Positions 1 through 63,952 of a stretch of 64,000 bases of DNA are shown here, piece by piece. This DNA is from Kalaharituber pfeilii. Lineage: Eukaryota; Ascomycota; Pezizomycetes; Pezizales; Pezizaceae. The position numbers were made by a program, and so were the translations under genes. The stretch covers positions 2,108,001 to 2,172,000 of the forward strand of contig WHUZ01000003.1 of NCBI GenBank assembly GCA_015179045.1. Direction: 5' to 3'. The notes under the pieces were generated by a model that saw only the letters and a list, made by a program, of their open reading frames with translations, did not search any database and was not told the DNA's origin. Each line of letters opens with the position of its first letter. Within the stretch, counting starts at the first letter, position 1.

Positions 1-74
1 GAGTCCCGTCTGTTGTGTTTATCTTGAAGGTCCATTTTCTCGCCATAGCCCCTAGGGCGGCACGCGAGCAATGA

Positions 75-112
<38 letters not shown>

Positions 113-470
113 AGGTCCATCATCTCTAAAATATTTCTTAGTATATATACTTGAATATAAAGTGTGATACATACTTGACGAAAAGTCGTAGACCGCTGCT
201 GTTTAAAATTCTAGATGTACGGGAGATTCTACTCATTTAAGTACTCAAACAATCTAGTGAACGCTGGCCTCAATTCACCTGATAGCTGTGGAGTGATTCA
301 GTTAATTGGCTTTAACCTGCCTGAATGGCCTGGACCGGCCTGGTTGGCCTGATCCCAATGAATCAGGCCAACCAGGCTAGTCCAGGCTGGTCCAGGCCAC
401 TGAGAATACCGGCCTGGACTGGTCCAGGCGGTTTCAGTCCAATGCAGATCACGGCCTGTTGGATTCCTTG
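1..470 (-). mobile_element. TIR element with ggcctggttggcct repeats, copy 1 (partial)
   Basis: This stretch is the reverse complement of most of 31956-32878. The shared sequence runs through the conserved AT-rich core, the GC-rich 'ggcctggttggcc' segment and the end 'cctgttggattccttga' near 470. The minisatellite is short here and expanded in the other copy. The other end lies outside the window. No coding region is seen, so it is probably a non-autonomous DNA element; its superfamily is not clear. Confidence 0.6.
36..108 (+). mobile_element. F1 micro-retroposon (LINE1 tail)
   Basis: Hairpin ctcgcc...gcgag followed by 'caatgatat' and a long A tail. It is flanked by a perfect 12-bp target duplication, ttgaaggtccat (24-35 and 109-120). 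It sits inside the TIR element at 1-470. Confidence 0.85.
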
Positions 471-573
471 ACAACCATGGACGTCTTGGAGCGGGCGGCG
501 GCATTAATATACTGTGCAATTCCTTGCTAGTATCTCCGGTGTTAGCATACTGTATGCCAGAATTGAGACTCAA

Positions 574-693
574 AAAAACAGACAAGTACGAAGCCTTGAG
601 AGGAGATAGCTATGGACTTTGTTGGAGAACTACCTGAATCTAAGAGCTTTGATGATATTTTAGTGGTCACGGACTAGTTTACGAAGATTCAGG
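574..693 (+). pseudogene. Ty3/gypsy integrase fragment
   Basis: Plus-strand translation gives a short match to the catalytic core start of gypsy integrases (MDFVGELPESKSFDDILVVTD, then stop, then FTKIQ). It parallels MDFITELPPSDGF... of the intact element at 17454-20132 but belongs to a different subfamily. In-frame stops lie before the M and after VVTD. It is joined head-on to the minus-strand gypsy remnant that begins near 697, so this is a rearranged junction. Confidence 0.6.
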
Positions 694-696
694 GTT

Positions 697-2867
697 CTTT
701 GAGAAGAGGGGGAGGAAAGTCAACTATTGGAGAAGGAGTGGCAGAAACTTCATTGGCTAAGATCTACCTCTCTAGTTTTCTAACTCAGATTCCTCGAGGG
801 TATTGATTCGGGAGGCTAAGCTCTGTACTTGTATTCCTGCCAATTTCTCTTTTTTCTTCTTGACCTTCTGGACTTTCTTAGACTCTCTCTTCTTGTCATC
901 ATCTCTCTTCCTCTTGTCTCCCCCTTGAGTAGTGTCCTCGGCATCCAGTCCTTCATGATTTCTGTACCATAGCATTTGGAGAAGGTGTGCCCTCTTCTTC
1001 CACATCTGAAGCACTTCCCTTCCTTTTTCCACTTCTCGCTAAGTTTTTTTGATGACCCTGGCAGGTATAGATTCGAGTTTGATGTTTTTGGGGTACTGGT
1101 CTCTTTTTTTCCCTGGCTTGCCTTTCCCTTCATATGGCCACTAGGTTTATTACCACTATGGTGGCCTGTGATCTATGTCGCTCCTTCGTCTAGCATGCCG
1201 ACCGCTATTACGTATTCGTACCAGTCTTCGAGCAATTTGTTTGGTACCGGGCATTCCCTAAGGAAGAAATGAGCTATGTCCTTTTTTAACCCCCTTACTA
1301 CCCTATCCTTGAAGGTTTTGTCATCGTAATTAGCGAAGTGGTTCATTTTCTTCATGGTATTAATGTAGTTCATGATTTTCTCTTTTTGGGTATAGTTGTC
1401 TATTTTATCTAGGACATTCATTTCCTGCAGTCCTACTCCTATTGCATTTTCGAGGTCTGCCAGGCACTTTTCAAAGGTTGCATCTCGTCGGGCCCCTGGG
1501 CCCATGTACTTGTGCTTGTTTTATACATGCCAGTCCGCCGCGGCCCCCGTGAGTGATCGTTCTGCATAGAGAATCTTGGTGTCTCCCTCTACAAAAGTGA
1601 GTCTGTGCTCCCGGAGGTGGATTAGGTCTATTATTTCGGTTTTCCAAACTTGGAGGCCTTCAAGACTTCTGTCCCAGTTTTTGGGAATTGGGAGGTACGC
1701 AAACGGCACATAGTGGTGAGGATCTAGCATAGATTAGAATAAGGGCCAAGGTTTGGCATCTTAAGTAGCTTTTCGTGGAGGTAAAGGTGGAGGTGTAGAA
1801 GTTAATGATCTTATGGAGAGAATGGTTTTTGCAGGTGATGAAGCTTGTGATAATAGATAGCTGGAAGGCAAGTTTGCTTCGAGAGTCTTGATCCTGTCCT
1901 GTAGGCCTTCTCGAAATATCTGGTCTGTCTTGGCGTCATTTTCTAACTTTGCCACTAGTGCTTCTAGAGTGGTCTTCGAGTCTTCTAGAGCCTTCTATTT
2001 TTGCTCCAGTTCTTTGTTCTCGGTGGTTTGCTTGTCACTATAAATCTTGGCATCTTGGAGTTGTGATTCTAGGGCTGCTACCACGGCATGCTTCTCGTTC
2101 AGGGCCTTGATAATTGTAGCATTAACATCTTTGGTATACTCTTGTTTAAGCTTTCAGATACACTTAGTAGTTTCTGCTTCCTACTTGAGTTTCTCGTTAT
2201 CCAGTTCGAGCTTGTACTTCTCAGCAGCAGTGAGTACTATGACATCATGGGCTGCTTTTTCTTCAGCCACCTTGGCCTGCAGTTTGGAGGCCCATTTTTT
2301 GGTTTTGGCTTTGAGCTTGGCTTCGTATTGCTGCATGTATTTGGTTGCGTTGTTTTTCAGCTGCTGTTGAAGTTTAATGAATTCTTGTTTTAAGAATTCC
2401 GCCTCGAGTTCTTCTTTTTGATCGACTTCCATTTCAATCGGTAAGGAAGGAGTGAGTGGCATTAAGCCGTTTCATGCTTTTTCGGGTTCATTCGTGATAC
2501 TTTCCTTGAGCTAGGTGTGCAAATTCAAGGCCCAGCTATTTAATTCTGCCATTAATGCATTAATATATGCTGAAGCAACTGCTTCTAGTATAGGAATGAT
2601 AATGGAGAGCTTTTCTTGTCTGTCTAATACTATGAAGTCAAACTTCCTTTGTTGCACTTCAATCCAGCTTAATTCATCTACATTCTCGATTTGCTGGGAG
2701 TATGACTTCCCCCTTGTGTGTAGTCCTGGCCTTAGTGTAGTAGTTAGAGCTGACTGCGCTAGTTCCATGCTATGCTCGGATTCTGCTTCTTCTACTAAGC
2801 GCCAGAGAACGAGTTCGTTTCCGGCACTAAGGAGTTTTGGTGTATCGGGGAATTCATATGCTGGCAT
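697..2867 (-). pseudogene. Decayed Ty3/gypsy gag with the first bases of pol
   Basis: Minus-strand reading, split into several frames, matches the gag of the intact element at 14363-16474 from its N terminus (MPAYEFPDTPKLLSAGNELV against [20 protein letters not shown]) through the coiled-coil region, the CCHC knuckle (CFRCGRRGHTFSKC near 1000) and the SELEN end. About 80 bp of the proline-rich pol start follow before the homology ends near 697. Many frameshifts and stops show it is dead. Its LTR is the diverged copy at 2925-8373. Confidence 0.8.
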
Positions 2868-2950
2868 GGCTATGGATTTATGAGATCCTAGTAAAGAAGG
2901 CAAACAAAGCCTAACAAATAATAGTGTTACGAGGTACGTAAGGCAGGCTG

Positions 2951-3245
2951 TCTAACGTTTTTATGGAGAGAGGAGAGTTTATTGTGCTCGCTCGATTAGC
3001 TTCGGGAGCTCTGCTACTTTCTACTACTATCTACATTTTTCTGGCGCGATACGCCCCCTTTTTATATTCTCGCTCCTTCAGCCTTCAGCCTCCGTTCATT
3101 TTTAGCAACTTGAATTTTAACCCTGCGAGGAAAGTTGAATTTTAGCCCTGTGAGGAAAGTTGAATTTTAGCCCTATGAGGAAAGTTGAATTTTGACCCTA
3201 TGAGGTTTAGCTCATTGACCGGGGGTGAGAGGCTACATTCTTACA
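2951..3245 (-). repeat. copia 3' LTR
   Basis: Direct repeat of 7468-7763. On the minus strand it begins TGTAAGAATG and ends CGTTAGA, so the usual CA end is replaced by GA. It contains three or four tandem 'gaggaaagttgaattttagccct' type units of about 24 bp and a TATA-like 'tatataaaaa' region. Confidence 0.9.
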
Positions 3246-3300
3246 CCCTCCCCAGCTTCGAACACCCGGTCTAACAGTTCTAAATCCTCATTACTGTACC

Positions 3301-4821
3301 CTAGGTCATGCAACCATCCTTCCAAATCGTCATCTGCAGCCTGTCCTTCCATTCCTTCATTGGCTTCTGAGGGATTAGCTTCGTCAACGGATCGGCAAGA
3401 TTGTCTTTCCCTGGGACTTTGCGTACTGTCAGTAGTTGCCGTTCCACCTGGTCCCGAATATAGTGATATCGATTGTCTATGTGCCTCGTTCTCCGGTGAA
3501 AGGACTTGTTCCCACTGAGCTTCGCCGTTGCCTCGTTGTCTGTGTATAGTATTGGAGTGGCTGATATCCCCCATTCGTCTAGTAGTTGTCGAATCCATGC
3601 AGCATCCTTGGCTGCTTCCGCTGCAGCTATGTATTCTGCCTCGGTATTTCCGGTTGATGCTACTGCTTGTCTTCGAGTATACCACATTACTATCTGTTGC
3701 CCTATCATGGCTATTGTGCCCATGGTAGCCTTGGCTTTTTCGGCAGGATATGATGCGTCCGTTATTATTTCGACATTGAGTGAATCTCCCTTTTCGATAG
3801 GGATCGCTTCGAACCGGGTAGAGTATAAGTATTCCAAAACTCCCGGCGCTGCTAGCATATTGGATTGGCTGGGATCCTGAGCTCTCCTTCCTAGTAGATT
3901 CACTACCAGCGAAATGTCTGGTCTGGTCATCCTGGCTATGTAGAGAAGGCTTCCGACTATTTGTTGATACTTTCGCTTGTCGCATCTCGGTTCTTCGGGC
4001 CTTTCGGCATAGCAGTCTGGGTCGAGCGGCAGCCAATTTCGCCCTCCAGTGATACCATGGGACTGGGCTGTTCGTTCTATAAGGCGAGTTTGAGTTAGTA
4101 TTACCTTATTCGTTCCCTGCCAATTCCATTCCATGCCCATGTCAGTAGGTTGATCTTTCCGTTCCAGCTCTACCCATTCCTCTAGTACTTGTTCAGTCTC
4201 ATCCAGCAGTTCTTCCGTAGCTGCGATTCCAAGGAGGTCGTCGACATGTTCAGCTAGGATCTGGTCCTTTTCTTCTGTAACAAAGCACCCCTCGTCACTG
4301 ATGCAGGGATAAAGCCGGGCATTGTTTAGTAGTCGCTTGAGCATTTTATTCCATTGATACCCGGCTTGCTTAAGTCCGTATAGTGCTTTGTGGAGCTTCC
4401 AGTACTCAGTTTCGCCCTTCTCATTAACGTCTATTACATAGACCTCGTGTTCCAGTGGAGCTTGAAGGTAGGCTGCCACAACGTCCCATTGCCTCATTTT
4501 CCATCCATTGTGTAGTGCTATTACTGTCATTATGCGCCATGTTTCTGGTCGAGCCATCTGCGCATATGTCTCATCATAATTAATACCCTTTTCTTGTGAG
4601 AACCCTCTTCCTACCTTTCGAGCTTTATATTTGTTGATACTACCGTCAGGGTTTCTTTTTACTACATAGACCCATTTGGTATCAACAGGCTTCACACCAT
4701 CAGGTAGCTGACTGACCACAGTATACACCCCATAAGTTCGTAATTGTTCTCGTTCAGCTTCTCGAGCTTTGCAGTGGTATAGGCGAAGCTTCTTCATCTT
4801 CGTCGTCGCTTTCTTGCTCAA
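3301..4821 (-). CDS. copia reverse transcriptase and RNase H
   Basis: About 500 residues covering the RVT_2 domain of Ty1/copia elements followed by RNase H. Visible motifs are KARKVGRGFSQ, the ALYGLKQAGYQWN signature, the catalytic box AEHVDDLLGIA (histidine where YVDD is usual), and the RNase H segment EIITDASYPAEKAKATMGTIA with ADPLTK near the end. The frame is +1 relative to the integrase part; the two open frames overlap at 4754-4821. In a typical copia element these are one polyprotein, so this is either a 1-bp insertion or a frameshift site. The product would copy element RNA into DNA inside cytoplasmic particles. Confidence 0.9.
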   Translation of the reverse strand: MSKKATTKMKKLRLYHCKAREAEREQLRTYGVYTVVSQLPDGVKPVDTKWVYVVKRNPDGSINKYKARKVGRGFSQEKGINYDETYAQMARPETWRIMTVIALHNGWKMRQWDVVAAYLQAPLEHEVYVIDVNEKGETEYWKLHKALYGLKQAGYQWNKMLKRLLNNARLYPCISDEGCFVTEEKDQILAEHVDDLLGIAATEELLDETEQVLEEWVELERKDQPTDMGMEWNWQGTNKVILTQTRLIERTAQSHGITGGRNWLPLDPDCYAERPEEPRCDKRKYQQIVGSLLYIARMTRPDISLVVNLLGRRAQDPSQSNMLAAPGVLEYLYSTRFEAIPIEKGDSLNVEIITDASYPAEKAKATMGTIAMIGQQIVMWYTRRQAVASTGNTEAEYIAAAEAAKDAAWIRQLLDEWGISATPILYTDNEATAKLSGNKSFHRRTRHIDNRYHYIRDQVERQLLTVRKVPGKDNLADPLTKLIPQKPMKEWKDRLQMTIWKDGCMT

Positions 4822-7467: not shown

Positions 7468-7763
7468 TCTAACGTTTTTATGGAGAGAGGAGAGTTTATT
7501 GTGCTCGCTCGATTAGCTTCGGGAGCTCTGCTACTTTCTACTACTATCTACATTTTTCTGGCGCGATACGCCCCCTTTTTATATTCTCGCTCCTTCAGCC
7601 TTCAGCCTCCGTTCATTTTTTAGCAACTTGAATTTTAACCCTGCGAGGAAAGTTGAATTTTAGCCCTGTGAGGAAAGTTGAATTTTAGCCCTATGAGGAA
7701 AGTTGAATTTTGACCCTATGAGGTTTAGCTCATTGACCGGGGGTGAGAGGCTACATTCTTACA
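7468..7763 (-). repeat. copia 5' LTR
   Basis: Direct repeat of 2951-3245, differing by one T in a homopolymer. It is followed on the outside by the target duplication ggctg and on the inside by the primer-binding site. Confidence 0.9.
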
Positions 7764-11470: not shown

Positions 11471-11535
11471 TATCCCTCGTAAATAGGATCCTGAGTAACG
11501 GAGCCTCAATTGCTCTCCAACCCGTATAAGATTAT

Positions 11536-11600
11536 TCTTTTTTTTTTTTTATATATCATTAATCGCATGCCGCCCGATGGGCTATGGCGATAAACTGACC
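11536..11600 (-). mobile_element. F1 micro-retroposon
   Basis: T run, then the reverse complement of atcgcc...gcgatt. Target duplication gtataagattat / gtgtaagattat (11524-11535 and 11601-11612), one mismatch. Outer pair A-T type. Confidence 0.75.
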
Positions 11601-11854
11601 GTGTAAGATTATCTTATTTGCGAAGTTTCAAAGCAACTCAAAATGCACCAGCAGTAAGAACTTCCAATAACAGCCACTGAAGCTGCAGAAGCGCATGCAT
11701 CTTGTGAAGGTTTACTTCATTCCCACTTTTTCACGATCTTACATTTACTTTTATTACTGCCACATCCAATCTACCAATGAGAAGCTGACATGTTTCTCCC
11801 AAATTAATCACGAATTTAGAAGTATCTAAGTAGTACAGCTACAATTTTTAACTC

Positions 11855-16474: not shown

Positions 16475-16497
16475 AAAGGCAGATCTTAGCCAACGAA

Positions 16498-21182: not shown

Positions 21183-21581
21183 ATATCTATGACTCATAAC
21201 TCTATCAATTCTAAACGGAATTAAGCGGCTTTTAAAGTAATAACTACTATATTGTAAAAGTCTTCCTATATCACTACCAATATATATATTCTTGGCATCA
21301 AGGCTCTAAGAATATATTAAGGCTTTAAGGATCCTCCTGTTTATTGCTTTTTATTCTTTATCTATTCATTAAGTTAACTCTTTATCTCCTTATACCTCTT
21401 TCTATACCTCTTCTTCTACATTACGATACTCTTATACTTTATTATAAACTCGTATCTTACTATATTATCTCTTTTACTACTTCAATGTCGGATTCTGAAC
21501 CTACATCTGGTTTCTCTTTACAAGCCAAAACGGAATTTGAAAACTGGTTAAGACAACAAAATTCCTCCTATCGTTTTCGTC

Positions 21582-21647
21582 ATCGCCATAGCCCTTAGGG
21601 CGGCATGCGATTAATGAAAGAAAAAAAAAAAAAAAAAAAAAAAAAAA
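21582..21647 (+). mobile_element. F1 micro-retroposon in the integrase exon
   Basis: Element starts exactly at atcgcc; outer hairpin pair is the A-T type (atcgc...gcgat). Perfect 13-bp target duplication tatcgttttcgtc (21569-21581 and 21648-21660). It interrupts the first exon. Confidence 0.92.
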
Positions 21648-23481
21648 TATCGTTTTCGTCTATCTTATGAAAAATATCGCCAAATTCGCTAATTTTTAAA
21701 TAATCCAACAATGACAGCTTTCAAAGAAGAACGACGATTAAAATGGACAGCTTTACATGAGTATCAACTTAATGATAAGAGAAATCTTATGAAGTTACCT
21801 AATGAAACCCAAGCTTTACATGGAGAAATACCTAAACAGGTGATTCTTCAGCATGAAGTATGGGATCAAATAGTTGATACTCATATAGCATTACTCCATG
21901 CCGGGCGAACGAAAACATTTTTACATATTAATAAACATTATTATGGAATTTCTAGAGAAGAGGTAAGTAATTATTTTCTTTTTATATTAAGTAATTAATT
22001 CTAATATTCTAATAGGTTGAGAAAGTAATTCAATATTGCACACTATGTATTCAAAATCAAGCACGAACTATAACTGGAGAACTACAGCCAATCAAAGTAT
22101 CACATTTATGGGAACGAGTTCAACTAGACTTAATTGATATGCGAGGCTCTCCTAGTGATTCATATAAATGGATATTACATTTACGAGACCACTTCAGCAA
22201 GTTTTCGTGGGCTACAGCATTAAAGTCTAAACGAGCTATAGAGGTTGCAACAAATATCATGACTTGGATTAGTCTTTTTGGACCGCCAAAAATTTTACAA
22301 TGTGATAATGGTACTGAATTTAAAGGTGTATGTGAGACACTAGTTCATGGTCATGGTATTCAATTAATACATGGACGTCCACGACATCCACAAATACAAG
22401 GACTTATTGAACAAGCAAATAGTATTCTTAAACAGAAATTAAGAGCATGGACTGCTGAAAGAAATATAAGTTTCTGGCATTTTGGATTATCGGAAGTTAT
22501 ATTTATAATGAATGCTCAGGTAATCTCTTTTTATATAAATTTAAATATTAATACTAATCATTAATAGGTACATTCGACAACTGGATATAGTCCATATGAG
22601 GTAGTATTCAAACAAAAACCTCATAGTTTACCATTACCACATCATCGCCGAAAAAGAAATATCTTATATGATGAAGATGGTGAAATTGTTACACTTCCTA
22701 CCTCAGATGAAGTAAATGCAGAACCCGGATCTAGTAATTCTGCTTTATCAGAACCAGAGTCTATTCAATCTCATTTTTCGGCTAAAGTGTTATTATTCGG
22801 TAAAAATTCTTAATTTCCTTTTTATTATAACTTATTTTACTAAGTATAGTCTTATTAGAATCTACTTTACCCCCCCCATTCAAATATGATAAACAATCAG
22901 TATTATCATCTTCCGGCGACTCTATATCATCCTCTAAAGATTCTCCATCATCTTCCAAAAATTCATTATTATTATTGAAGAGCTCAGCATTATCTTCTCA
23001 AGAAGTGATAGTTATTTCCTCAGATACAACTTCAAATTCTGAATCAAAGTCAGAAGACTCAGAAACCTTGCCTGAAGTGTCCTTACTTCTTCATAATGTT
23101 CGCCAAAATACAAAACGAAAGCGCCAGCAAATGAAGCAACGTCATCAAAGAAAACGTCCAATTCGAACCTTTGAACCAGGAGAAATTGTGACAGTATATA
23201 TTCCACAAAACGATCGCTGTGGACTCAATAAACGCAGACTATTTGCAAAAGTTTTACATAAGTCACATTTGGATCGCTATCAGCTTTATACTATATATGG
23301 TCTTTTAGATCGTCATTATCCTTCTCGAGAGCTTCAAAAAGTTCCAATTTCTGTCACCAATTCCGAAATTCAACATATGCAGAATATCTCATTTGAACCT
23401 GATCAGTTACAGCTTTTAAGGTCAATATCATTACGTGAAGCAGCTCGTCGTTGCAAAGCAACTACTCAAAATACAAATGAA

Positions 23482-28229: not shown

Positions 28230-28241
28230 ATCTGGTCACGA

Positions 28242-28291
28242 CTCGCCATAGCCCCTAGGGCGGCACGCGAGTACTGATTAAAAAAAAAAAA
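28242..28291 (+). mobile_element. F1 micro-retroposon
   Basis: Starts at ctcgcc and ends in 12-13 A. Target duplication atctggtcacga / atctagtcacga (28230-28241 and 28292-28303), one mismatch. Confidence 0.88.
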
Positions 28292-28509
28292 ATCTAGTCA
28301 CGAAGATCAGACCCTACGCAACACCTTCACCCTAAGAATCCCCCTACTCGTGGTAGCAGTGTAGGGATTGGTTTTAAATATTCACGCAAATCGTCTATTG
28401 AGATTCAAATACTTAGCTAGCTACGATGACATACAAAAGACTTGTCAAAACATGTCATCCGCCACCCGTGTTCGAGCTTTCTATCACCTTACATCCGCTA
28501 CTGTATGTT

Positions 28510-28674: not shown

Positions 28675-29132
28675 GTTCTGTTCTTTCATTTAACTCATAT
28701 CAATGATCTACCACCATGATGTTGCCATTAATGTTTGATGAAATCATGCAATGACGCCACAGCACCAACTTAAGCTTAGTTGCAAGCCAAACGCATTCCG
28801 TGTGACTTGCGCACCCTATTGTTCTGGCAGTCATGTCATGCAAATGCTTATCATGTATGTAATCCTGTGTTGTTCTGCAATCTCTTTAATCAATCAGACT
28901 TAGGTACAGATCTTCTTTATTCCCTCAGAAGGGGCCAGTATAGCCCGCCTCCCAGGAAAACTCTGCTTTCGCCACCCTGCCCTTGCTACTGCCCTTATCG
29001 CTGCTCCTACCTTTGTATTATTTTTCTCAGCTAATGAACCTATCGTATAAAGGCCTCATCTAGCCCTCATGTAAATAGTTCTTTCTCTCCTTGTCTGGTG
29101 TCTTATGTTTTTACTAGACCCATATGGTTCCT
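28675..29132. other. No gene recognised
   Basis: Short frames only; no recognised family. Confidence 0.45.
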
Positions 29133-29140
29133 CGTAGTCC

Positions 29141-29144
<4 letters not shown>

Positions 29145-29178
<34 letters not shown>

Positions 29179-29227
29179 CATTTAATCGCATGCCGCCCTA
29201 TGGGCTACGGCGATATTTAGTTACAAT
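29145..29227 (-). mobile_element. F1 micro-retroposon
   Basis: Long T run, then the reverse complement of atcgccgtagcccatagg and gcgatt. Target duplication cgtagtccatat / cgcagtccatat (29133-29144 and 29228-29239). About 13 extra bases precede the hairpin. Confidence 0.85.
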
Positions 29228-29244
29228 CGCAGTCCATATGTTCT

Positions 29245-30189: not shown

Positions 30190-31097
30190 AGTCTTCCTTT
30201 TTGCAACTTACAACGGCCCGTAAAAGGTCTTGGATTAGACAGTATTGGGATAAGTATGTCCTGCAATATACTGTGTGGGACGGCGAGGTCGTAGGTATGA
30301 GAGGTGCCCTCGAGGCGGGTGATGCCAGGGCAAGAGTGTTATTGCTCGCAGACTCTCAGACAGCAATTAGCGCGGTCAAGGTAGCAGGGAAAACTGGAAA
30401 ACCGAGGACTGCGGACCTGGCGCATGTGGTAGAGCTCGTGGCAGAAAGGCGGCGGAACTTGAGATCCCGGAGCTGTGAGGCTTGCGTGGGTCAAGGCCCA
30501 TGTGGGGATAGAGGGCAATGAGACCGCAGATGAGAGGGCCAAAGAGGGGGCCAGATGCACGAGGTACGATGGGCAGGCTACTGAGGGCGGTCTGCGCCAG
30601 GAGTTAGTTCGAAAGAGAAATGAGGAGAGGGAGCGAGCTGGGTTCGGGAAGGGCAAGTTCGTGAAGTGGTGCAGGAGGGCCCTCACCAACTACTCCTGAC
30701 TGCGGACTGGAAAAGGCGGAGCCATGTGGAGGAGAAAAATCAGTGGAGAGAAGGCACGGGGCTCTTGTGGAGCAGCTTGGAGTGCAGAACATGTGGTGTT
30801 TGAGTGTGGCGAGCTGGAGCGGCCCAAGGGAAAGAAGGAGAGTGGAGAGATGGCCACCTGGCAGTGCTGGGAGGACTTTGAGGAGAAAGGGTGGAAGCAG
30901 GAGGGGGTAGAGGGCAACCCAGTCGAGGTAAGGTTCGCCAGCCTCGATCTGAGCTAGCTGAAGGGCCGCAGCTACGTTGTGTACCAAGCGTGTACGTAGT
31001 GTAGATAGGTAGCTGGTTTAACCTGACCCGGGTAAATGGGTCCCTGCCATAGGCTGGTAGCCTGTATGCGGGGTTACGTGAATTAAAAACAAAAAAG
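30190..31097 (+). pseudogene. LINE2 fragment: RNase H and 3' end
   Basis: 5'-truncated Tad-like LINE. The RNase H domain is readable: VLLLADSQTAISAVKVAGKT in one frame, then LAWVKAHVGIEGNETADERA in the next after a shift near 30470. A basic stretch RNEERERAGFGKGKFVKW follows. The 3' UTR ends in the F2 hairpin of the type ccctgccataggctggtag, gcggggttacgtgaat and an A-rich tail. This anchors the F2 micro-retroposons as copies of this LINE's 3' end. Confidence 0.8.
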
Positions 31098-32424: not shown

Positions 32425-32622
32425 AGGTTCAGGCCAATTGAATGAATCACTCCACAGCTATCGAGGTGAATTGAGGCCAGCGTTTACTAGATTGTTTGAG
32501 TATTTAGATGAGTAGAATCTCCCGTATATTTAGAATTTTAAACAGCAGCGGTCTACGACTTTCGTCAAGTATGTATCACACTTGATATTCAAGTATATAT
32601 ATATTTTAGCGATGATGGACCT

Positions 32623-32677
32623 TTTTTTTTAAAAACATATCATTACTCGCATTCCGCCCTGGGGGCTATGGCGAGAT
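32623..32677 (-). mobile_element. F1 micro-retroposon
   Basis: Reverse orientation, target duplication atgatggacct (32612-32622 and 32678-32688). It lies at almost the same element position as the F1 at 36-108 in copy 1. Confidence 0.85.
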
Positions 32678-32933
32678 ATGATGGACCTTTCAGATAATAC
32701 AACAGACGGGACTCAATTCTTTGATGATGATACCTAATACGCAACTGTCAATTACTTATAGTGGAAATGTCCAGGACTATTAAAATCTAATTCACCTGGG
32801 TTAGATTCTAAAATCGCTTGAATTTACGTAAATGGCCTGGTTGGCCGGCCTGGCCTGGCCTCGCCTGTTGAATTCATTATAAAAATCTCACTACTCAAAT
32901 TCAACTCCAAATCCTCATGCGTTCTTCACTCAA

Positions 32934-38883: not shown

Positions 38884-39487
38884 CCTCGGCAACGAGGCGG
38901 CGGACGAAGCAGCGAGGGTGGGCACTGCGTTGCAGTACGAACCGGCGCTAGTGACGGAAGCCGGCATGAGACAAAGAGGGAGGAGAGAGAGAGCGGGGGA
39001 GAGGAATCGAATGGAACTGACATACAGACCGCTAGAAAGGCTCGGACATATGACAGGACGATTGGCGGGCCTACTGGGGGGCAAGGGGCTGAGGGCGTGG
39101 AGATGGCACATGGGGGAAGGGGACGGCCCAGAATGCAGGTGGTGCGGGGAGGAGGAGGAGACGACGAGACATCTGTTTGATCAGTGCAGAGTATGGAGGC
39201 GGGGATGACCGGGGGATTTTATTTTTTTTTTTTTTTTTTTTTAATCACATAACCCCGCTTGTAGCACTTGGCCATGGCAGGGTATGACCGGGGGGAGAGG
39301 AGCACGTCAGGAGGCCGCCGCGGGACAAAGGGGAGGGGGGGAGGACCCGCTGAAGAAGTTGATAGAGATGCTCGGAGAATGAAGAGCCCGCATAGTTTCT
39401 AGTTGTTTATTTCCTGTTGCCCCTGATTTTATGTTTTTATAAATAACACATCGCCATAGCCCATAGGGCGGCAAGCGATTAATGATA

Positions 39488-39515
<28 letters not shown>
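38884..39515 (+). mobile_element. LINE1 3' fragment with nested F2
   Basis: Perfect 13-bp target duplication tctggccttcctt (38871-38883 and 39516-39528). Coding sequence reads GNEAADEAARVGT (RNase H end) and ECRWCGEEEETTRHLFDQC, then an F2 insertion, the last codons, a UTR and an F1 hairpin of the A-T type with a long A tail. Confidence 0.9.
39216..39283 (-). mobile_element. F2 micro-retroposon in LINE1
   Basis: T run, then aatcacataaccccgcttg. Target duplication atgaccggggg (39205-39215 and 39284-39294). Confidence 0.9.
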
Positions 39516-39520: not shown

Positions 39521-39642
39521 CCTTCCTTTACCAGGGCACGTGCAATGCCAAGGCCCTCTCCAGGTTTGCGACAGTGCCCTGCATCCGCGGGTCGCCAAGC
39601 CTCGATTTGGGTTATGGTGATGTGCATCAATAAGGGACCCGT

Positions 39643-39800
39643 CTAGAAGCTAGGAGAGCGGGGGCGATGGCGCGTGGGGGCCATGTACGTAGAGAGTTAG
39701 TTTAGCCTGTCTCCGGGCTATGAGGGCTTGCCCAGGGACCCTGCCATGGCCAAGTGCTACAAGCGGGGTTATGTGATTAAAAAAAAAAAAAAAAAAAAAA
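39643..39800 (+). mobile_element. LINE2 3' end, 158 bp
   Basis: UTR, F2 hairpin (ccctgccatggccaagtgct) and A tail. Perfect 14-bp target duplication aataagggacccgt (39629-39642 and 39801-39814). Confidence 0.92.
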
Positions 39801-40106
39801 AATAAGGGACCCGTGTCAGCCGAAATTATGGGCTTAAAGTTGAGACTCTTCCTTGTCACCCAACCAGATCTGATTGAAGTGTAAACCCCATAGATAAGTA
39901 CTATTTCGTCTGCTCTACAACTTGATGATATCCGATTCAAAAAATATGAAGGCGTTGTTGAGTTATAGGGTTTTGAAAACCTTATACTTTGTATGAGAAG
40001 CCCTTGAAATGTAATATGCCAAAATAGCCAAGAATTTAGAATTAGTACTAGTGTAAGTCAAATTCCAACTAAATAAGGAAATGATCTACTCAATCATCGG
40101 TGACTT

Positions 40107-40172
40107 TTTTTTTTTTTTTTTTTTTTTTAATCACATAACCCCGCTTGTAGCACTTGGCCATGGCAGGGTTCC
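40107..40172 (-). mobile_element. F2 micro-retroposon
   Basis: T run and reverse complement of the F2 hairpin. Target duplication tcggtgactt (40097-40106 and 40173-40182). Confidence 0.88.
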
Positions 40173-40182
40173 TCGGTGACTT

Positions 40183-40655
40183 TGCTTGTGTACTATCTAG
40201 AGATATGCTTCTATAGTACGCAAACATCTATAAAAAAAAGCGATTAATGATAATAGCAGAAATATGTGACAGGCCTGTAGACCATGTTGATATCAGAGTT
40301 CAATAGCAGAAAAGTCCATATCTATTATATTTTCATCAACTCCTGATAAACATTTGTTGCCATGCTCAAATTGTGAATCTCCTGTGCATCACGTCGCTCC
40401 TGCTCTTCTTGATCTGACTCAAATTTATCTTCCAAAGATTCTTCACTTTTGCCAAATTCAATGGAAGTATCCACTTCCACCGTAACTGATATTTTTTACT
40501 TCCTGCTAGCAGCAGTGCGCAGGCAAGCTCTTCTTTACTTAGTAGGACGAGGCATTTGGCATAGATGAGGCCAACATGTTCTACAGAACTAGCCTCTCCA
40601 TAGAGAACAAGTAAGTAGAATATGCTCACTCTTAGGAACTTCGCTCAAGTTGTCC
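40183..40655. other. No gene recognised
   Basis: Only a short minus-strand open frame (40366-40629) without family resemblance. Confidence 0.4.
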
Positions 40656-44055: not shown

Positions 44056-44083
44056 ACGTACGGTGAAAGCAACGAAGAGCATA

Positions 44084-44141
44084 CCTCGCCATAGCCTATA
44101 AGGCGGCATGCGAGTAATGAAATTAGAAAAAAAAAAAAAAA
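44084..44141 (+). mobile_element. F1 micro-retroposon
   Basis: Starts cctcgcc, inner stem gcctataaggc, A tail. Perfect 13-bp target duplication aacgaagagcata (44071-44083 and 44142-44154). Sits 28 bp from an opposite F1 copy. Confidence 0.92.
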
Positions 44142-44154
44142 AACGAAGAGCATA

Positions 44155-44723: not shown

Positions 44724-44736
44724 AAGTATAAATGTT

Positions 44737-44795
44737 TTTTTTTTTTTTTTTTTTTTTTTCACGTGACCCCGCATGCAGCTGTTCGCCAAGGCAGG
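44737..44795 (-). mobile_element. F2 micro-retroposon
   Basis: T run, cacgtgaccccgcatgcagc. Perfect 13-bp target duplication aagtataaatgtt (44724-44736 and 44796-44808). Confidence 0.92.
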
Positions 44796-44954
44796 AAGTA
44801 TAAATGTTGAAACTTGGGTACGTTGTACAGCGAACCTAGCCAGGGATGGTGATGTGGCAATGAGCGTGAAAAAACATAAAGATCAAGCCTGGCGTTCTGT
44901 TTTGTATGACCCCCACAAGAACAGCTGCCTCAGGATGACATAACACGTGCCGAG

Positions 44955-46487: not shown

Positions 46488-46539
46488 ATGAGGCATATCA
46501 AGAGGAAATTGATGATGTTCATAGGACTATTCATGTTAG

Positions 46540-46541
<2 letters not shown>

Positions 46542-46570
<29 letters not shown>

Positions 46571-46605
46571 ATGACCCCGCGTGCAGCTGTTCGCCAAGGC
46601 AGGGC
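46542..46605 (-). mobile_element. F2 micro-retroposon
   Basis: Perfect 13-bp target duplication attcatgttagtt (46529-46541 and 46606-46618). Confidence 0.92.
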
Positions 46606-47056
46606 ATTCATGTTAGTTAAGAATGCTGTACTATAAAGCGGCAATCTCTCCGCTCATGTATCTAATAATGCATCTTGGTTCCTTTTTGGCTTTTATCCTT
46701 GTAAATTGATCAATGGCCCGCTTTAGTGATGAGTAGCCCAGTTACCGACTGGCCCGGATAAGATGGCTGGACCCGAACAGAAGCCATTCGGGCGTTTTCG
46801 AAAGTTAGTGCTATGAGGCCTAGACTTTAATTGGATTGATTAAAGATCACCTAGAACATAACTTCCGGATGGAGAGGTCAGTGGGTGTGGGTGGCTTAGA
46901 TGGAACAAAATTGATCGATCTAGAAGGACAGTGAGGAACCTTGTTTTTTTTGTTTTTTCAGGGCCAAGCATCAGAAGGTATGCCGAAGTGGTTGTTGAAT
47001 TCAGCAGTGCCTAACTAGCACTGCATAATGTACCTACACTTGCCTTCATACGAGGG

Positions 47057-47185
47057 TTCTTTTTTGTTTTTTTCGTCACGTGACCACGCATGCAGCTGCT
47101 CGCCATTTTTTTTTTTTTTTGGTCACATGACCCCGCATGCGGCTCTTCGCCATAGCAGGACAGCTGCTCGCCATGGCAGGGCACC
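47057..47185 (-). mobile_element. F2 copy with a second F2 inside it
   Basis: Outer copy flanked by tacgaggg (47049-47056 and 47186-47193). Inner F2 at 47107-47160 in the same orientation, with a 14-bp duplication cagctgctcgccat (47093-47106 and 47161-47174) made from F2 sequence. Confidence 0.85.
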
Positions 47186-49107: not shown

Positions 49108-49485
49108 CCCCCCAACCTAAGCCCCGACACCCAAATCGGGTTGCGGTGCTGACACCCGACGCTTTGCACCACAGTGCAAATTGTGCGAGTATTAAGGTTG
49201 CTCATTATCACAACACGTACCCACAACATAGATTCCTCATCATATGCAATTACCTTATACCATAATCTCGGTTCATGTGCTATCCTTCACACATGTTAGC
49301 TTTCCGTGATATGTCCCGTGATGCTCATTGCATAATCTTTAACAGCAATCAGACTATACACTTGCACAATACATGCTAGACTTTCTTGTTAGCGAGTGCT
49401 GCCAAGGATCCAGCAGTCAGGACCCGAACAGACAAACGTTGAAACCTGACGGCAACATAAGCGACCAGTCAACAGGTGCTTGTCA
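49108..49485. other. No gene recognised
   Basis: Apart from the 'gacacccaaatcgggtt' block near 49130, nothing recognised. Confidence 0.4.
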
Positions 49486-49498
49486 GCCAGCCGACGGT

Positions 49499-49559
49499 GC
49501 CCTGCCATGGCGAACAGCTACAAGCGGGGTCACGTGAAATAAAAAAAAAAATAAAAAAA
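49499..49559 (+). mobile_element. F2 micro-retroposon
   Basis: Starts gccctgcc; tail of A with one T. Target duplication gccagccgacggt / gccaaccgacggt (49486-49498 and 49560-49572). Confidence 0.9.
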
Positions 49560-49860
49560 GCCAACCGACGGTTTGCTCACGTTTAACAGTGGAGTCCAAG
49601 TTGACGGGAAGATGTGGTCGCGCTTTAACAAAATTAGATTCTCATCCATAAACGTGCCAATACATATACTGTAGATATATTGATAGTGGCAAGTCAAACG
49701 CGAGGCCTCTGCATAATCACAACAAATCGGCAAAAAAGTCAATGAAAGTGCAAACAGATAATTGTGGAGAAAGTTCAATAGGCTCAAAACTTCAACAGAA
49801 GGTCTGATTTTGAAACGCTTTGTAGCAGAATTGCTGTTACGTTGGCACCTGGGGTCACCT

Positions 49861-50031
49861 GCCCTGCCATGGCGAACAGCTGCAATTTCTTCTACCTTCA
49901 TATGTATCTAATCTCATGTAACTAATCTCGCCATAGCCCCCAGGGCGGCACGCGAGTAATGATATAAAAAAAAAAAAAAGAAAAAAGAACAGCTGCAAGC
50001 GGGGTAACGTGACAAAAAAAAAAAAAAAAAA
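49861..50031 (+). mobile_element. F2 copy with nested F1
   Basis: Outer duplication acctggggtcacct / acctggggccacct (49847-49860 and 50032-50045). The F2 body is split at cagctgcaa by an F1 insertion. Confidence 0.9.
49886..49986 (+). mobile_element. F1 with 41 bp of leader, inside F2
   Basis: Target duplication gaacagctgcaa (49874-49885 and 49987-49998). Carries 41 bp before the hairpin and an A/G tail. Confidence 0.9.
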
Positions 50032-50209
50032 ACCTGGGGCCACCTTGGCTGCACAGATTAAGCCGTAACTTCGCCTTCACCTAGCGTCCGTACTAGTATA
50101 ATGTTCCATTTCCCATTTTTCCAGATAAAGTTTTGAAATACTGTAGTGAGGGCTATGGCGGGAGCGCTTCAAGGCGACAAGAGACATGAAGAAAGGAGAA
50201 TGAAGAAAA

Positions 50210-50276
50210 TTCCCTGCCATAGGCTGGTAGCCTGTAAGCGGGGTTACGTGAATAAAAAAAAAATAAAATAAAAAAA
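50210..50276 (+). mobile_element. F2 micro-retroposon, LINE2-like subtype
   Basis: Loop stem aggctggtagcct as in the LINE2 end at 31050. Perfect 14-bp target duplication gagaatgaagaaaa (50196-50209 and 50277-50290). Confidence 0.92.
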
Positions 50277-50369
50277 GAGAATGAAGAAAAGCCACACAAC
50301 GTAAATGAGCTAGCCACCTGCCGACCATAGCAATCCTTATAGCACAACTCCACTTTCCATGACGAATGG

Positions 50370-53457: not shown

Positions 53458-53466
53458 TCAGCTAGT

Positions 53467-53468
<2 letters not shown>

Positions 53469-53501
<33 letters not shown>

Positions 53502-53519
53502 CATTAATCGCATGCCGCC
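53469..53519 (-). mobile_element. Minimal F1 insertion
   Basis: Reverse orientation; only ggcggcatgcgattaatga plus about 32 A. Target duplication tcagctagtta (53458-53468 and 53520-53530). Truncated at nearly the same hairpin position as 41944-41978. Confidence 0.92.
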
Positions 53520-53884
53520 TCAGCTAGTTAGTGAAAGTATTCCTGTCTTGGCCAAGTAAGTTCTCAGCAGACACTTCAAACGAAGATCTAAGTGCTTAAG
53601 TCTGCTCACAGTGCGAGATACTGGAGCAGGGGTATCAGATGTGAGAAGAGTGTACTATGAGATAAAATAAAATAAATAAAATGCCAATGCACCTGGGGCA
53701 CTATGATCTGGAAAGGAAAGTACTAGTACCTCTCTGATCCTCTGATTCGATCTTTACAGTTGTTTTCTCCCCGATGTGAGCGGTGGAAAATGACTGCTGC
53801 GCAGCGCTTTTGCTTCCTAAAGTGGAGTTGAAGGATCTGGAGAGACGCCTTTTCTAACGTTTCAGGGAGAAAATATGACATTTC

Positions 53885-53945: not shown

Positions 53946-54197
53946 GAGAGAATAGGATATGAACGTATTGCATTTAGATGATGAAGGAGCAGTCCGCGTG
54001 CAAAAGTAGGACGCGTGGTGAGGTTTTTAGTAGCTGTGTATGAGACTAGGCAAGTGCTATTATTTTTGTGTCACCAGGAATGATATGTGATTAAGCTTCC
54101 TCTTATCCAAACCAGATGGGATGAGATGTGGCGGGGCATCATCGTAGATTCACTCGCAGATTACAGGACCCTAACCGGCCTAAGTTTTGTAGCGGCT

Positions 54198-54263
54198 TGT
54201 TTTTTTTATTTTTTTTTATTTTATCACGTGACCCCGCGTGCAGCTGTTCGCCATGGCAGGGCA
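54198..54263 (-). mobile_element. F2 micro-retroposon
   Basis: Perfect 13-bp target duplication ttttgtagcggct (54185-54197 and 54264-54276). Confidence 0.92.
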
Positions 54264-54486
54264 TTTTGTAGCGGCTGAAAGGGGTTTAGACTTTGGATAA
54301 CATTCCAGTCGTGATCCGACAGATCATCGCGATCCAGCGCACTTCCGGACTCACAACACATCACCATAATAAGTTCAAATTTTATATGCAGCTTCAAGAA
54401 GGGTACCTTCTGCACCTGATCCACCAAATCCCACAGTTGAGGCCGATACTCTAAGGGGGGTAGTTACCTTAATAGGAAGTAGAGAC

Positions 54487-54549
54487 TCTTTTTTATACAT
54501 ATATTTATATCACATAATCCCGATTGCAGCTGTTCGCGATGGCAGGGCC
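54487..54549 (-). mobile_element. F2 micro-retroposon
   Basis: Target duplication agtagagac (54478-54486 and 54550-54558); tail partly mutated. Confidence 0.85.
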
Positions 54550-54869
54550 AGTAGAGACATATACAGGCGCCAATATGTGATATGGCCAGTTACAGTAACA
54601 CTTCGATCAAGTGTATATAAATTCTACACTTGTGTAGCTAAGATATATGGAACGTTTCAGGGCCATTGGGAGCAACTAGGGTTTTTTTTTTTTTTTTTTA
54701 TATCAATACTCGCAAGCCGCCCAAAGGGCTATGGCGAGGGTCTTTATTAATGAAAGTAAAAAACAAACAAAAAACAAATCTCGTAACCCTAACTACATGT
54801 ATTGCCCGCGAACTCCTCCATGATGCGGGTGGCGCCCGGTATCTCCTACTTCCGTCCCCTCTCCGTCTC

Positions 54870-62009: not shown

Positions 62010-62022
62010 GATTGGCCGTTTC

Positions 62023-62084
62023 GCCCTGCCATGGCGAACAGCTGCACGCGGGATCACGTGACAAAAAAGGAAAAAAAAAAAATG
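62023..62084 (+). mobile_element. F2 micro-retroposon
   Basis: Starts gccctgcc. Perfect 13-bp target duplication gattggccgtttc (62010-62022 and 62085-62097). Confidence 0.92.
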
Positions 62085-62097
62085 GATTGGCCGTTTC

Positions 62098-63653
62098 AAC
62101 CAATTGAAGGATTCAATGTACCTCTGTTACCCTCCCGCATTGCGCTTACATCAAGGAACCCCACACTCTCACTCTTCACACAACTTCTTGGAGCAGGGCT
62201 AAAATATTGCAGTGAATATGTGCCCGAGCAGCATTAGGCAGTACATGGCCGGTGTAACCTGCTCATTTTCCTCTACACAGTTAACTCAATGTAGAAGAAA
62301 GCATCACCACTCCTTTCCTGGAATGAGATCAGAGGTTGCTTCGGATTAAGTGGAACGCATGTTACGGTTTTGTTTTCAAACTTTCTGCTGTGGGCCCACT
62401 GTTCTGTAGCCAATTCAACTAGCGTATTGCAATGCAGCCTAGGCCCCACATGTTCCTCAAACAAGAAAGCACTGGATTGCAGCAGCAGGCGTATCTTGCT
62501 TCAGGCGTTCAGACATACGCTCTGGTCGTTCGAGAAATACAAAGTCCACGTCAGTCTCAAAAAATCATGGACCGAGTTGGAATGGAAAATTGTTATTGTT
62601 TATGAAGACGCCTTCGCTTCAGCCGTTACAAAAGCGTAGTCACATTTGACCTAAGCTAGGGAGATGTACTCACCTGAGTACATACATACTGGAGTGTCCT
62701 CAATCAGGAAACCTTATGAGATTGCAGCTGGTTAGGATGTCTAAGCATACCAAGCCTGAAAAATAGGCCTCAACTCTACATGCGGAGTACAGAAGCAGGA
62801 AGGAACTCATACTAATCCATTTGAAGTAACAGAACTTATGAGTGAGGGGACAAAAGGAGCTCTAGTATCGTCATGTCTGATGGGAAAGCTGTTCATTTTT
62901 ATCATAGTCGCAGAAAGGGTGGCATGCTGTGCGAATATCTGACATGATCCAATGGGATGAATATTTAGGATATGAAAAAGGGGAGGGGGGCAATGAATGT
63001 AGCTGTCAACCTGGCGTGTGCGTTGTTCATCACAGGAGACACACCCAACAAAGCCTACTGTGCAAATGGCTTTGATCGAGAATTCTCAGGAGCCTAATGA
63101 GGAGCATACAACACTCAAAGCCTACTGTACGGTCGATCTGTTTGCCAAAAACGTGGAAAAACACTGTTGAAGGGTCACAGAGCTTGTCAAAGAAACTGTA
63201 GGGCGAATTTGAAACAATAATGTGAGTGCCAGTTTTTGTCGACAGACCCAGGTGGTAAGTTCCGGAAGAGGGGACCGTACATCGATAATCAGCGACTTAT
63301 TCGGTGCGCTTAGCTTACTATTGGACCTACGTCTCACAATCATAGTTGCAGGATAAGCTGGAAGATAAAAGTAATGTGCAATGCGATGTCCAGCATGATT
63401 GAGTTCCATACTGGACTTTACACCATTGTAACGGGAACGGCTTACGAATCAACAACACCACATTAAGACAATGGCTTGACAAGCATTCTGGCATACCGGC
63501 AGGGCACAAGGTGCAATCAAAGGTGATCTAGTATGGACTGCAGAGTTTTCAAGGTGATCTAGTATGGATTGCAGAGTTTTCAAGGTGCATATATATATAG
63601 CGGTGTTCATGACCATGCGTTCTCTTTTTCTTTTCTCTTCACGCAACCTCTTG
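62098..63653. other. No gene recognised
   Basis: Only a direct repeat of aaggtgatctagtatgga (63520-63575). No recognised coding family. Confidence 0.4.
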
Positions 63654-63737
63654 TACTAGCCAGTAAAATATGTATTCGGACAGGGGTACTAATACACATT
63701 ATGCGCTGTGTCCGAATACATATTTTACTAGCTAGTA
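63654..63737. repeat. 84-bp hairpin element
   Basis: Arms 63654-63682 and 63709-63737 are inverted repeats of 29 bp with one mismatch (core agtaaaatatgtattcggac). The 26-bp loop is unique. Possibly a very short MITE or foldback. Confidence 0.8.
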
Positions 63738-63900
63738 TCTAGTTTTACTAAGTAAGATTGGTTACCTGCTGTGCTGGACGCGGTGACCCGCTGAACCGCT
63801 GCCTGCTGAACCGCCGCCTGCTGAACCGCCGCCTGCCTGCGCTCCGTAGATCACGATCCCAGACCACGATCCGCCGTTACAACCATTCACACCTAGCATG

Positions 63901-63952
63901 TTTTTTTGTTTTTTTATCACGTGAACCCGCGTGCAGCTGTCCGCCATGGCAG
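63901..63952 (-). mobile_element. F2 micro-retroposon, 5' end lost
   Basis: T-rich tail then atcacgtgaacccgcgtgc and gccatggcag. The ccc of the outer stem is gone and no target duplication is visible. Confidence 0.65.

Follow-up and report, generated by a model that had tools for sequence, protein, structure and literature searches.

Ultrashort LINE-tail insertions made of one hairpin and poly(A), with discrete 5' ends, in Kalaharituber pfeilii

Results

Hairpin-plus-poly(A) insertions in the window

The DNA studied here, subsequently designated the window, comprises 64,000 nt of Kalaharituber pfeilii (assembly GCA_015179045.1, contig WHUZ01000003.1, positions 2,108,001 to 2,172,000 of the forward strand). 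A tRNA ligase with the fungal phosphodiesterase domain is in keeping with a fungal source. Scattered through the window are some two dozen insertions, each 50-82 nt long with the A run included and consisting of one hairpin and poly(A); target duplications of 9-15 bp flank most of them (Table 1). Insertions of this kind had been proposed in a first-pass annotation, and the repeat pairs named there (21569/21648, 44071/44142, 44724/44796, 46529/46606 and 62010/62085) are all perfect 13-bp duplications. A duplication finder detected seven F1 copies beginning 1-13 nt before TCGCC and one beginning within the hairpin, as well as the 11 F2 copies labelled ultrashort in Table 1; a further four F2 copies (7831, 46419, 47161 and 63917) are short by eye and passed none of the automatic tests. 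The previous counts of about 14 F2 and about 8 F1 copies were right and exceed chance, as judged by reversed patterns and a mismatched-pair control. Since the F2c copy at 50196..50290 has duplications identical to those in L132 and L141, these represent one F2c event that was copied along with its surroundings.

Table 1. Hairpin-bearing copies in the window. Leading A's at the edges of the duplications may be part of the A tail.
Feature	Position	Strand	Remarks
F1b ultrashort	24..120	+	12-bp duplications 24-35, 109-120; element 36-108; 4 nt before TCGCC
F1a ultrashort	11522..11612	-	14-bp duplications, 1 mismatch; 8 nt before TCGCC
F1a ultrashort	21569..21660	+	13-bp perfect duplications; start at closing pair of hairpin
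F1b ultrashort	28230..28303	+	12-bp duplications, 1 mismatch; 1 nt before TCGCC
F1a short	29132..29239	-	13-bp duplications, 1 mismatch; 13 nt before TCGCC
F2c hairpin and tail, end of longer copy	31042..31097	+	LINE-like upstream, resembling F2c LINE ends; no duplication within 160 nt
F1b ultrashort	32612..32690	-	13-bp perfect duplications; 3 nt before TCGCC
F2b ultrashort	39201..39294	-	15-bp duplications, 1 mismatch
F1a LINE copy, 3' end	39300..39515	+	97% identity to L002 (216 nt), 98% to L003 (208 nt)
F2b longer copy	39629..39814	+	158-nt element, start 96 nt before hairpin; 14-bp perfect duplications
F2b ultrashort	40097..40183	-	11-bp perfect duplications; 4 extra nt
F1b ultrashort	44071..44154	+	13-bp perfect duplications; 2 nt before TCGCC
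F2a ultrashort	44724..44808	-	13-bp perfect duplications; T instead of G at -1
F2a ultrashort	46529..46618	-	13-bp perfect duplications; one extra G
F2a ultrashort	47093..47174	-	nested inside second F2a copy (pieces 47076-47106, 47161-47181)
F2a ultrashort	49485..49572	+	14-bp duplications, 1 mismatch; one extra G
F2a ultrashort	49847..50045	+	interrupted by nested F1b insertion 49874-49998; separate duplications for each
F2c ultrashort	50196..50290	+	14-bp perfect duplications
F1a, start within hairpin (3' arm)	53458..53530	-	11-bp perfect duplications; counter-example to hairpin-base start
F2a ultrashort	54185..54276	-	13-bp perfect duplications
F2a ultrashort	54478..54558	-	9-bp perfect duplications
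F2a ultrashort	62010..62097	+	13-bp perfect duplications; one extra G

Discrete 5' ends in F1 and F2a

The 78-Mb genome was searched with F1 and F2 tail patterns at up to 3 mismatches, yielding 5,138 F1 and 2,757 F2 matches with LINE ends counted in, and no match for reversed control patterns. Exact-match tails were sampled (60 F1, 60 F2a and 20 F2c), and 2,786 mismatched pairs served as control. Duplications were found at 67 of the 120 F1 and F2a tails, at 3 of the 20 F2c tails and in 12 of the 2,786 mismatched pairs. A start at most 8 nt from the hairpin in combination with a duplication was detected for 47/60 F2a and 14/60 F1 tails, as compared to 1/2,786 in the control; neither a duplication nor LINE-like upstream sequence was present in 7/60 F2a and 18/60 F1 tails of this tail-selected sample. 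Among F2a copies with duplications (n = 50), the stretch between 12 and 37 nt contained no start, nor did that from 39 to 160 nt, and F1 copies with duplications (n = 17) were devoid of starts between 9 and 60 nt. Smooth truncation is thereby excluded for F1 and F2a. Both have a discrete 5' end across many copies, a trait of SINEs, and not the ends scattered over the LINE that characterize 5'-truncated copies. The earlier proposal that the 5' ends pile up at the hairpin base therefore holds for F1 and F2a, and the smooth decay from full-length LINEs, which the first-pass annotation had set against its own reading, was not seen.

Some scattered copies exist alongside, with F1 starts in a mixed set at 13, 27, 35 (weak score), 42, 48, 61, 98 and 104 nt, an F2b start at 96 nt in the window and an F2c start at 114 nt; three F1 copies start within the hairpin. 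A second sharp 5' end lies one hairpin further upstream, again at the foot (6 of 18 long F2a copies, and L007:3048, L068 and L150). Starts at the foot of hairpin 1 far outnumber those at the foot of hairpin 2, followed by long copies.

The base step at the 5' end was counted in the first 100 exact F2 tails among the matches listed. The LINE parent reads AGGGG at the step of the GTCA-type tails; in those of the matches listed that lack AGGGG upstream (n = 48), G occupies position -1 in 48/48 and position -2 in 7/48. At -1, F2a has G, F2b A (3 window copies), F2c T, F1a A and F1b C, with three F2a exceptions (L007:2919, L028:9244 and window position 44795). Because base -1 tracks the parent LINE subfamily (G, A or T), a cap-derived G at this position was ruled out.

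LINE parents and yield of short copies

The hairpins had been assigned to the ends of two LINE families. Their origin from LINE tails was borne out, and short copies and partner LINE have the 3' end in common, as SINEs do; F2, though, comprises several LINE subfamilies. F2 parents carry a reverse transcriptase (RT); in the F2c LINE, on C2, C13 and C201, the distance from the RT to the F2c tail downstream is ~1.6 kb. A 144-residue piece of RT matched 33 relatives, and no solved structure matched its longer frame. The tail at 31050-31097, formerly taken for the F2 parent, is of the F2c type, which is seldom short; the main producer of short copies is F2a, whose LINE parent differs from that of F2c. 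The window yielded no recognisable long copy of F2a.

Short copies occur in F1a, F1b, F2a, F2b (two window copies) and F2c (a single event). Long copies predominate in F2c, where only 2 of 20 were short, both from this one event. An F2 relative, GTTA, has a 33-nt tail 2 bases off the sampled F2a tails and is mainly long, 1 of 20 tails picked for absence of G at -1 being short. Hence the presence of hairpin and tail is no predictor of short copies, and the strong difference in short yield among LINE subfamilies with similar tails indicates that the hairpin alone is not decisive. An initial figure of ~90% short copies for all F2 tails was wrong, as LINE tails with AGGGA upstream had been miscounted and 19 of the 20 GTTA tails are long; among F2, only F2a tails have a high proportion of short copies.

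Junctions, nick site and hairpin structure

The insertions display features of LINE-type target-primed reverse transcription, i.e. duplications (8-15 bp), an A tail adjoining the downstream duplication and a preferred nick site. In F2a, C/T precedes the nick in 87% and A/G follows it in 91%; in F1 (14 copies), the values are 85% and only 50%, respectively. The 5' junction shares at least one base with the target in 13 of 47 short F2a copies, which is near chance, and 11 of 45 carry extra bases that are not simply G or GG and mostly differ from the parent. Full-length L1 and Alu copies are reported to share bases at chance level, and truncated L1 copies in nearly 80% (PMC2912911). Short F2a copies lack the excess of sharing that marks truncated LINEs such as L1. 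By this comparison, F2a junctions resemble full-length rather than truncated L1 and favour, short of proof, a tail-only RNA template over an early RT stop. The first-pass annotation had left open a discrete template or a fixed RT stop; the junctions lean to the former.

The F1 stem shows compensatory pairs, with 96.2% of positions paired versus 92.4% in the best of 200 shuffles. No covariation was detected in the comparison of F2 stems, which include G-U pairs, and the F2a hairpin energy was no better than that of shuffles (z -0.38).

Searches for promoters and ribozymes

That the copies are not ordinary SINEs, as suggested earlier, was corroborated: in the window ARAGORN detected no tRNA-like gene and Rfam no family at the gathering score, and, also considering the size of 50-82 nt, neither an internal pol III promoter nor a tRNA, 5S or 7SL body was found in the copies. 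The closing G-U pair of F2a is reminiscent of the foot of HDV P1. Rfam analysis of 7 LINE ends gave only three weak matches (E 0.9-2, far under the cut-off), and an HDV-like or other ribozyme at the cut was rejected, as no ribozyme was among the matches up to E 5.

Discussion

The probability appears to us evenly balanced that the ultrashort copies arose by target-primed reverse transcription of a tail-only RNA, itself made by cutting or trimming of LINE transcripts from the 5' side to the hairpin foot. The LINE end with its hairpin, short linker and poly(A) would be the putative recognition site of the LINE RT. Transcripts would be shortened as far as the hairpin foot, or in fewer cases only as far as that of the next upstream hairpin, bound LINE protein perhaps shielding the tail, and the ~40 nt polyadenylated RNA left over would be a complete template, copied through to its 5' end. 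The free tail RNA and its making are what we infer here. Such an RNA is supported by the sharp ends of F1 and F2a, by the second pile-up of ends one hairpin further upstream, by the base step and by the near-chance base sharing at F2a junctions. On the other hand, a 5'-to-3' trimmer should reach the upstream hairpin first, yet the hairpin-2 class is smaller, which argues against trimming; the F2a energy and the lack of F2 covariation speak against this reading, and so do the starts inside the hairpin, the F2a copies without G at -1, the F1 and F2a tails with neither duplication nor LINE-like upstream sequence, and the mainly long copies of GTTA and F2c.

An unlikely alternative is that RT starts on the whole LINE RNA, copies poly(A) and hairpin, and quits at the foot owing to hairpin anchoring or bound protein. 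The class order, with hairpin-1 feet far ahead of hairpin-2 feet, then long copies, matches the direction of cDNA synthesis, and for MGL of Magnaporthe, a fungal LINE, RT template switching at GCC*A/U, downstream of predicted hairpins, is described (PMC2104539). However, this motif is absent at the present ends, the parents lacking GCC directly 5' of the ends seen in F1, in F2a and at the second hairpin; the stop would come after copying of the hairpin, not before, the near-chance base sharing of F2a is unlike truncated L1, and the similar GTTA hairpin yields long copies, although the GTTA RT may differ. A block by the next-upstream hairpin was rejected, since it would shift F2a ends outward by ~4-5 nt and since pairing in the regions upstream of F1 is inconsistent. 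It is rather improbable that one active tail-only locus, or a few, gave rise to the short F2a copies through read-through or a neighbouring promoter, which would make them a promoterless SINE lineage. Among the matches listed, 48 GTCA tails lack and 8 carry AGGGG, and F2c and GTTA make few short copies, as such masters would explain. Against them, short copies arose separately in F1a, F1b, F2a, F2b and F2c, and all 5 tail variants listed at least 7 times occur with and without AGGGG (AGGGG share 5-27%; read by eye among the matches listed, 100 + 99 rows, the commonest variant including long GTTA LINE ends).

Trimming might instead act on the cDNA: after RNA removal a long cDNA would fold into the hairpin, and a host nuclease would trim its single-stranded 3' end to the foot before joining. 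Ends at every hairpin foot, within a base, would be expected, and NHEJ factors have been reported to shift LINE insertions in DT40 cells in favour of truncated copies (PMC2666801). We nevertheless regard this as quite improbable, since the G-U pairs of F2 stems become A-C mismatches in cDNA and thus weaken the DNA hairpin, and since the GTTA LINE group is largely spared. Ordinary random 5' truncation, with a pattern owed to chance or a biased sample, has next to no probability: scattered truncated copies are present in F1, F2b and F2c, but the empty start intervals and the -1/-2 base step refute it for F1 and F2a.

If the tail-only template is right, target-primed reverse transcription needs no more than hairpin, linker and poly(A), and the genome has repeated a natural minimal-substrate experiment many times; template recognition would be separable from processivity, SINE-like elements could arise ahead of promoter gain, and very many natural 5' junctions would be at hand for studying 5' end joining. 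The data suggest that free tail RNA may be enough for copying into DNA. LINE groups with similar tails and different upstream bases provide a contrast that makes the cause directly testable. More tentatively, and with some doubt on our part, the copies might form a class of promoterless retroposons whose whole mobile unit, the RT-binding hairpin of a LINE plus poly(A), is set free when longer transcripts are processed at the hairpin foot; any hairpin-bearing transcript, including host transcripts with an older copy, could then give templates, and the copies would renew themselves without promoter or gene.

The copies are a variant of LINE-dependent non-autonomous retroposons, new in form; a literature search by title and abstract, with subscription papers mostly outside its coverage, found no family of the tail-only kind. 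Known SINEs have a body and, as a rule, a pol III promoter. In Magnaporthe, the Mg-SINE 3' end is described as similar to that of MGL (PMC2104539). Like such SINEs with LINE-related tails, the present copies are non-autonomous, have a LINE tail and show LINE-type target duplications; unlike them, they consist of the tail alone, ~39 nt before linker and A run, and have no body. A terminal 3' stem-loop is reported to be required for retrotransposition of the stringent-type LINEs UnaL2, ZfL2-1 and ZfL2-2, and the ZfL2-2 protein to bind its cognate stem-loop (PMC4176376). Here, too, a stem-loop terminates the LINE 3' end, but it is mobile by itself, and it may be required by the RT. With 5'-truncated LINE copies the insertions have LINE origin, duplications and poly(A) in common, but their 5' end is fixed, not scattered, and their junctions resemble those of full-length copies. 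Therian tailless retropseudogenes, ascribed by their authors to internal priming, are missing the 3' part as well as the A tail; in the fungal copies it is the 5' part that is missing, and the A tail is retained.

Copies in the window and genome-wide sampling

The window (G000:C223:2108001-2172000) belongs to an assembly of 78.0 Mb in 360 contigs, whose source is probably fungal, judging by the tRNA ligase encoded in L017 and the chromodomain-bearing gypsy element of the window. F1 (F1a, F1b) and F2 (F2a, F2b, F2c) are LINE tails made up of hairpin, linker and poly(A), and short copies are tail-only insertions that start near the hairpin foot (TCGCC in F1, CCCTGCC in F2) between target duplications. 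Scanning by BLAST with both hairpins, combined with a duplication finder, recovered the insertions that the first-pass annotation had listed, and the five duplication pairs quoted there are all exact. Including the A run, short copies in the window measure 50–82 nt (F1) and 54–67 nt (F2), leaving out a split copy at 49847 and a 158-nt F2b copy.

Genome scans detected 2,581 + 2,557 F1 tails (35-mer, up to 3 mismatches), 1,387 + 1,370 F2 tails (33-mer, up to 3 mismatches) and 300 + 282 F2c tails; reversed control patterns gave 0 matches in each scan. These totals are not short-copy counts, because LINE ends are included. Flanks were examined for 60 F1 tails (the first 40 of 100 exact matches listed plus 20 from the remainder), 60 F2a tails (chosen likewise from exact 33-mer matches) and 20 F2c tails (13 exact, 7 with one mismatch), all picked by the tail alone. 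For two further sets the upstream sequence was the criterion: long F2a copies (18) and F2 tails of the GTTA form lacking G at -1, the base just 5' of the hairpin (20). Using exact matches biases the samples towards young copies, and the places listed lie mostly on low-numbered contigs.

Short copies start at the hairpin foot

With a score cut-off of 6.5 and a distance penalty of 0.02 per nt in the duplication finder, 47/60 F2a tails carried a duplication and started within 8 nt of CCCTGCC, and one more, placed at 11 nt by the finder, really starts at 1 nt by eye. Two started at exactly 38 nt, three had LINE-like upstream sequence without duplication (by eye, one of these, L151, also begins at 38 nt), and seven had neither. 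Of the F1 tails, 14/60 started within 8 nt of TCGCC and 3 at 61–99 nt, while 25 were LINE-like without duplication and 18 had neither. Extrapolated to the genome, the F1 fraction would correspond to about 1,200 short copies, and 48 of the 100 exact F2 tails listed would correspond to some 500 short F2a copies with exact tails, to which mismatched ones would add. In F2c, 2/20 were short, both sharing the duplication of a window copy and therefore representing one event; one started at 114 nt, 14 were LINE-like and 3 unclassified. As a control, 2,786 mismatched upstream/downstream pairs yielded 12 duplications, 1 of them short. An earlier pass without distance penalty, covering 161 tails (window, L002–L028 and the first 80 samples), detected duplications in 54/74 F2 tails of all types and 22/87 F1 tails, versus 2.9% of mismatched pairs; scattered F1 starts (13, 27, 35, 42, 48, 61, 98 and 104 nt) were also present in this set.

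The F2a end is sharp. G occupied -1 in 45/45 short copies of the exact-match sample, with the extra bases between duplication and hairpin being G (21), none (11) or others ending in G (13, two of them GG); three F2a copies of the 161-tail set had another base. The GTCA form made up 56 of the first 100 exact F2 tails listed and had G at -1 in 56/56, with the AGGGG of the LINE in 8 and G at -2 in 7 of the remaining 48. With AGGGG in the parent, this places the boundary of the copied sequence between -1 and -2. Genome-wide, 736/1,037 exact F2 tails had G at -1 and 191 had GG; within the list of 100, every tail lacking G at -1 carried GTTA (28 of 44).

Folding of the tails and a second end

Single-strand folding placed the usual start at the closing pair or one base beyond (A-U in F1a, C-G in F1b, G-U in F2a, A-U in F2b). 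When more of the F2a LINE end is folded, the prediction changes and the 5' arm pairs elsewhere, so that the hairpin is uncertain within the whole RNA. Fold energies relative to shuffles gave z of -2.60 (F2c), -2.23 (F1b), -1.62 (F1a) and -1.08 (F2b); F2a was no better than shuffles (-0.38). The 35 distinct F1 tails include compensatory changes (the closing pair is C-G in 25, A-T in 10; an inner pair goes from C-G to T-A in 4), and their stem was 96.2% paired versus at most 92.4% in 200 shuffles. Covariation support was absent for F2 (92.6% paired versus a shuffled mean of 92.9%).

In 6 of the 18 long F2a copies, the duplication lay 0–2 nt from AAGCC, where the next predicted hairpin has its foot; L007:3048, L068 and L150 also begin exactly there. 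The remaining long copies had it at 85 nt (one) or at 14 nt with a weak score (one), or lacked one within 200 nt (10).

Finished template versus early stop

The sampled genome-wide distribution of 5' ends bears out the first-pass view that these are not smoothly truncated LINEs, excluding smooth truncation for F1 and F2a. We favour a finished template rather than an early stop: the end comes after the copied hairpin, longer extras mostly differ from the parent sequence, and 13/47 short F2a junctions share bases with the target, which is near chance (28%, 25% expected). According to an L1 survey (PMC2912911), such sharing is at chance level in full-length L1, similar in full-length Alu, and nearly 80% in truncated L1; the F2a junctions resemble the full-length elements and not truncated L1, although different organisms and LINE clades are being compared.

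A purely structural rule is opposed most strongly by the GTTA tails without G at -1 (one 33-mer, two bases off the sampled F2a tails), of which 19/20 were long and 1/20 short. Nearly all of these 20 are ends of another LINE group, with upstream ...GGACTTCGGTCCAGGGA. Upstream sequence, or the reverse transcriptase and transcript involved, matters for the yield of short copies. The accessible parts of PMC4176376, PMC2104539, PMC2912911, PMC2666801, PMC5322556 and PMC5135761 hold no description of tail-only elements of this kind.

Parent LINEs and neighbouring elements

Searching with a reverse transcriptase fragment (RVT_1) from L128 revealed two main groups of relatives, some members having open frames of >1,000 codons. 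The parents may belong to the Tad clade. The F1 parent is less clearly recognised, with LINE ends 75–98% identical over ~200 nt. L189–L208 represent a further F2 LINE group with a UUCG-type hairpin (GGACTTCGGTCC) immediately 5' of the tail and few short copies. Three mutually similar frames (by eye), which resemble LINE ORF1, run almost straight into an F1 or F2 tail; those at window 54802 and in L127 lack a Pfam match. Since they nearly abut the tails, ORF1-only derivatives with the body deleted, like half-LINEs, seem to exist.

Coordinates of LINE-related and other features (window positions unless a contig or stretch is named)
Position	Feature	Remark
C2, C13, C201	RT group 1, ~1.6 kb upstream of F2c tails	mostly 91–97% identical to L128 fragment; coordinates checked
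C11, C73, C101, C124, C203, C298, C301, C315, C321	RT group 2, ~1.6 kb upstream of long F2a tails	~50% identical to L128 fragment; coordinates checked
37835-38392	RNase H-like frame upstream of an F1 tail	below Pfam cut-off
8771-9765; 54802-55674; L127 3563-4984	ORF1-like frames	
47076-47181	F2 copy nested within another F2 copy	
49847-50045	F2 copy split by F1 copy with its own duplications	duplication finder
50196-50290	short F2c copy	
14363-20132	gypsy-type element with chromodomain	Pfam
3233-7025	copia-like element	putative; by reading of sequence
3110-3205; 7628-7723	25-bp tandem array	same on both sides of copia-like element

Ultrashort copies inserted into one another form nested series, in the window as well as in L029 and L030, which could order copy ages. 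The short F2c copy of the window recurs with an identical duplication in L132 and L141, so the surrounding segment has been duplicated. Twenty 10-kb stretches along contig C223 (L009–L028) gave 10 tail matches versus 43 rows in the 64-kb window; C223 therefore has repeat-rich and repeat-poor parts. The long ORF of L017 encodes a tripartite tRNA ligase including the Pfam fungal tRNA ligase phosphodiesterase domain.
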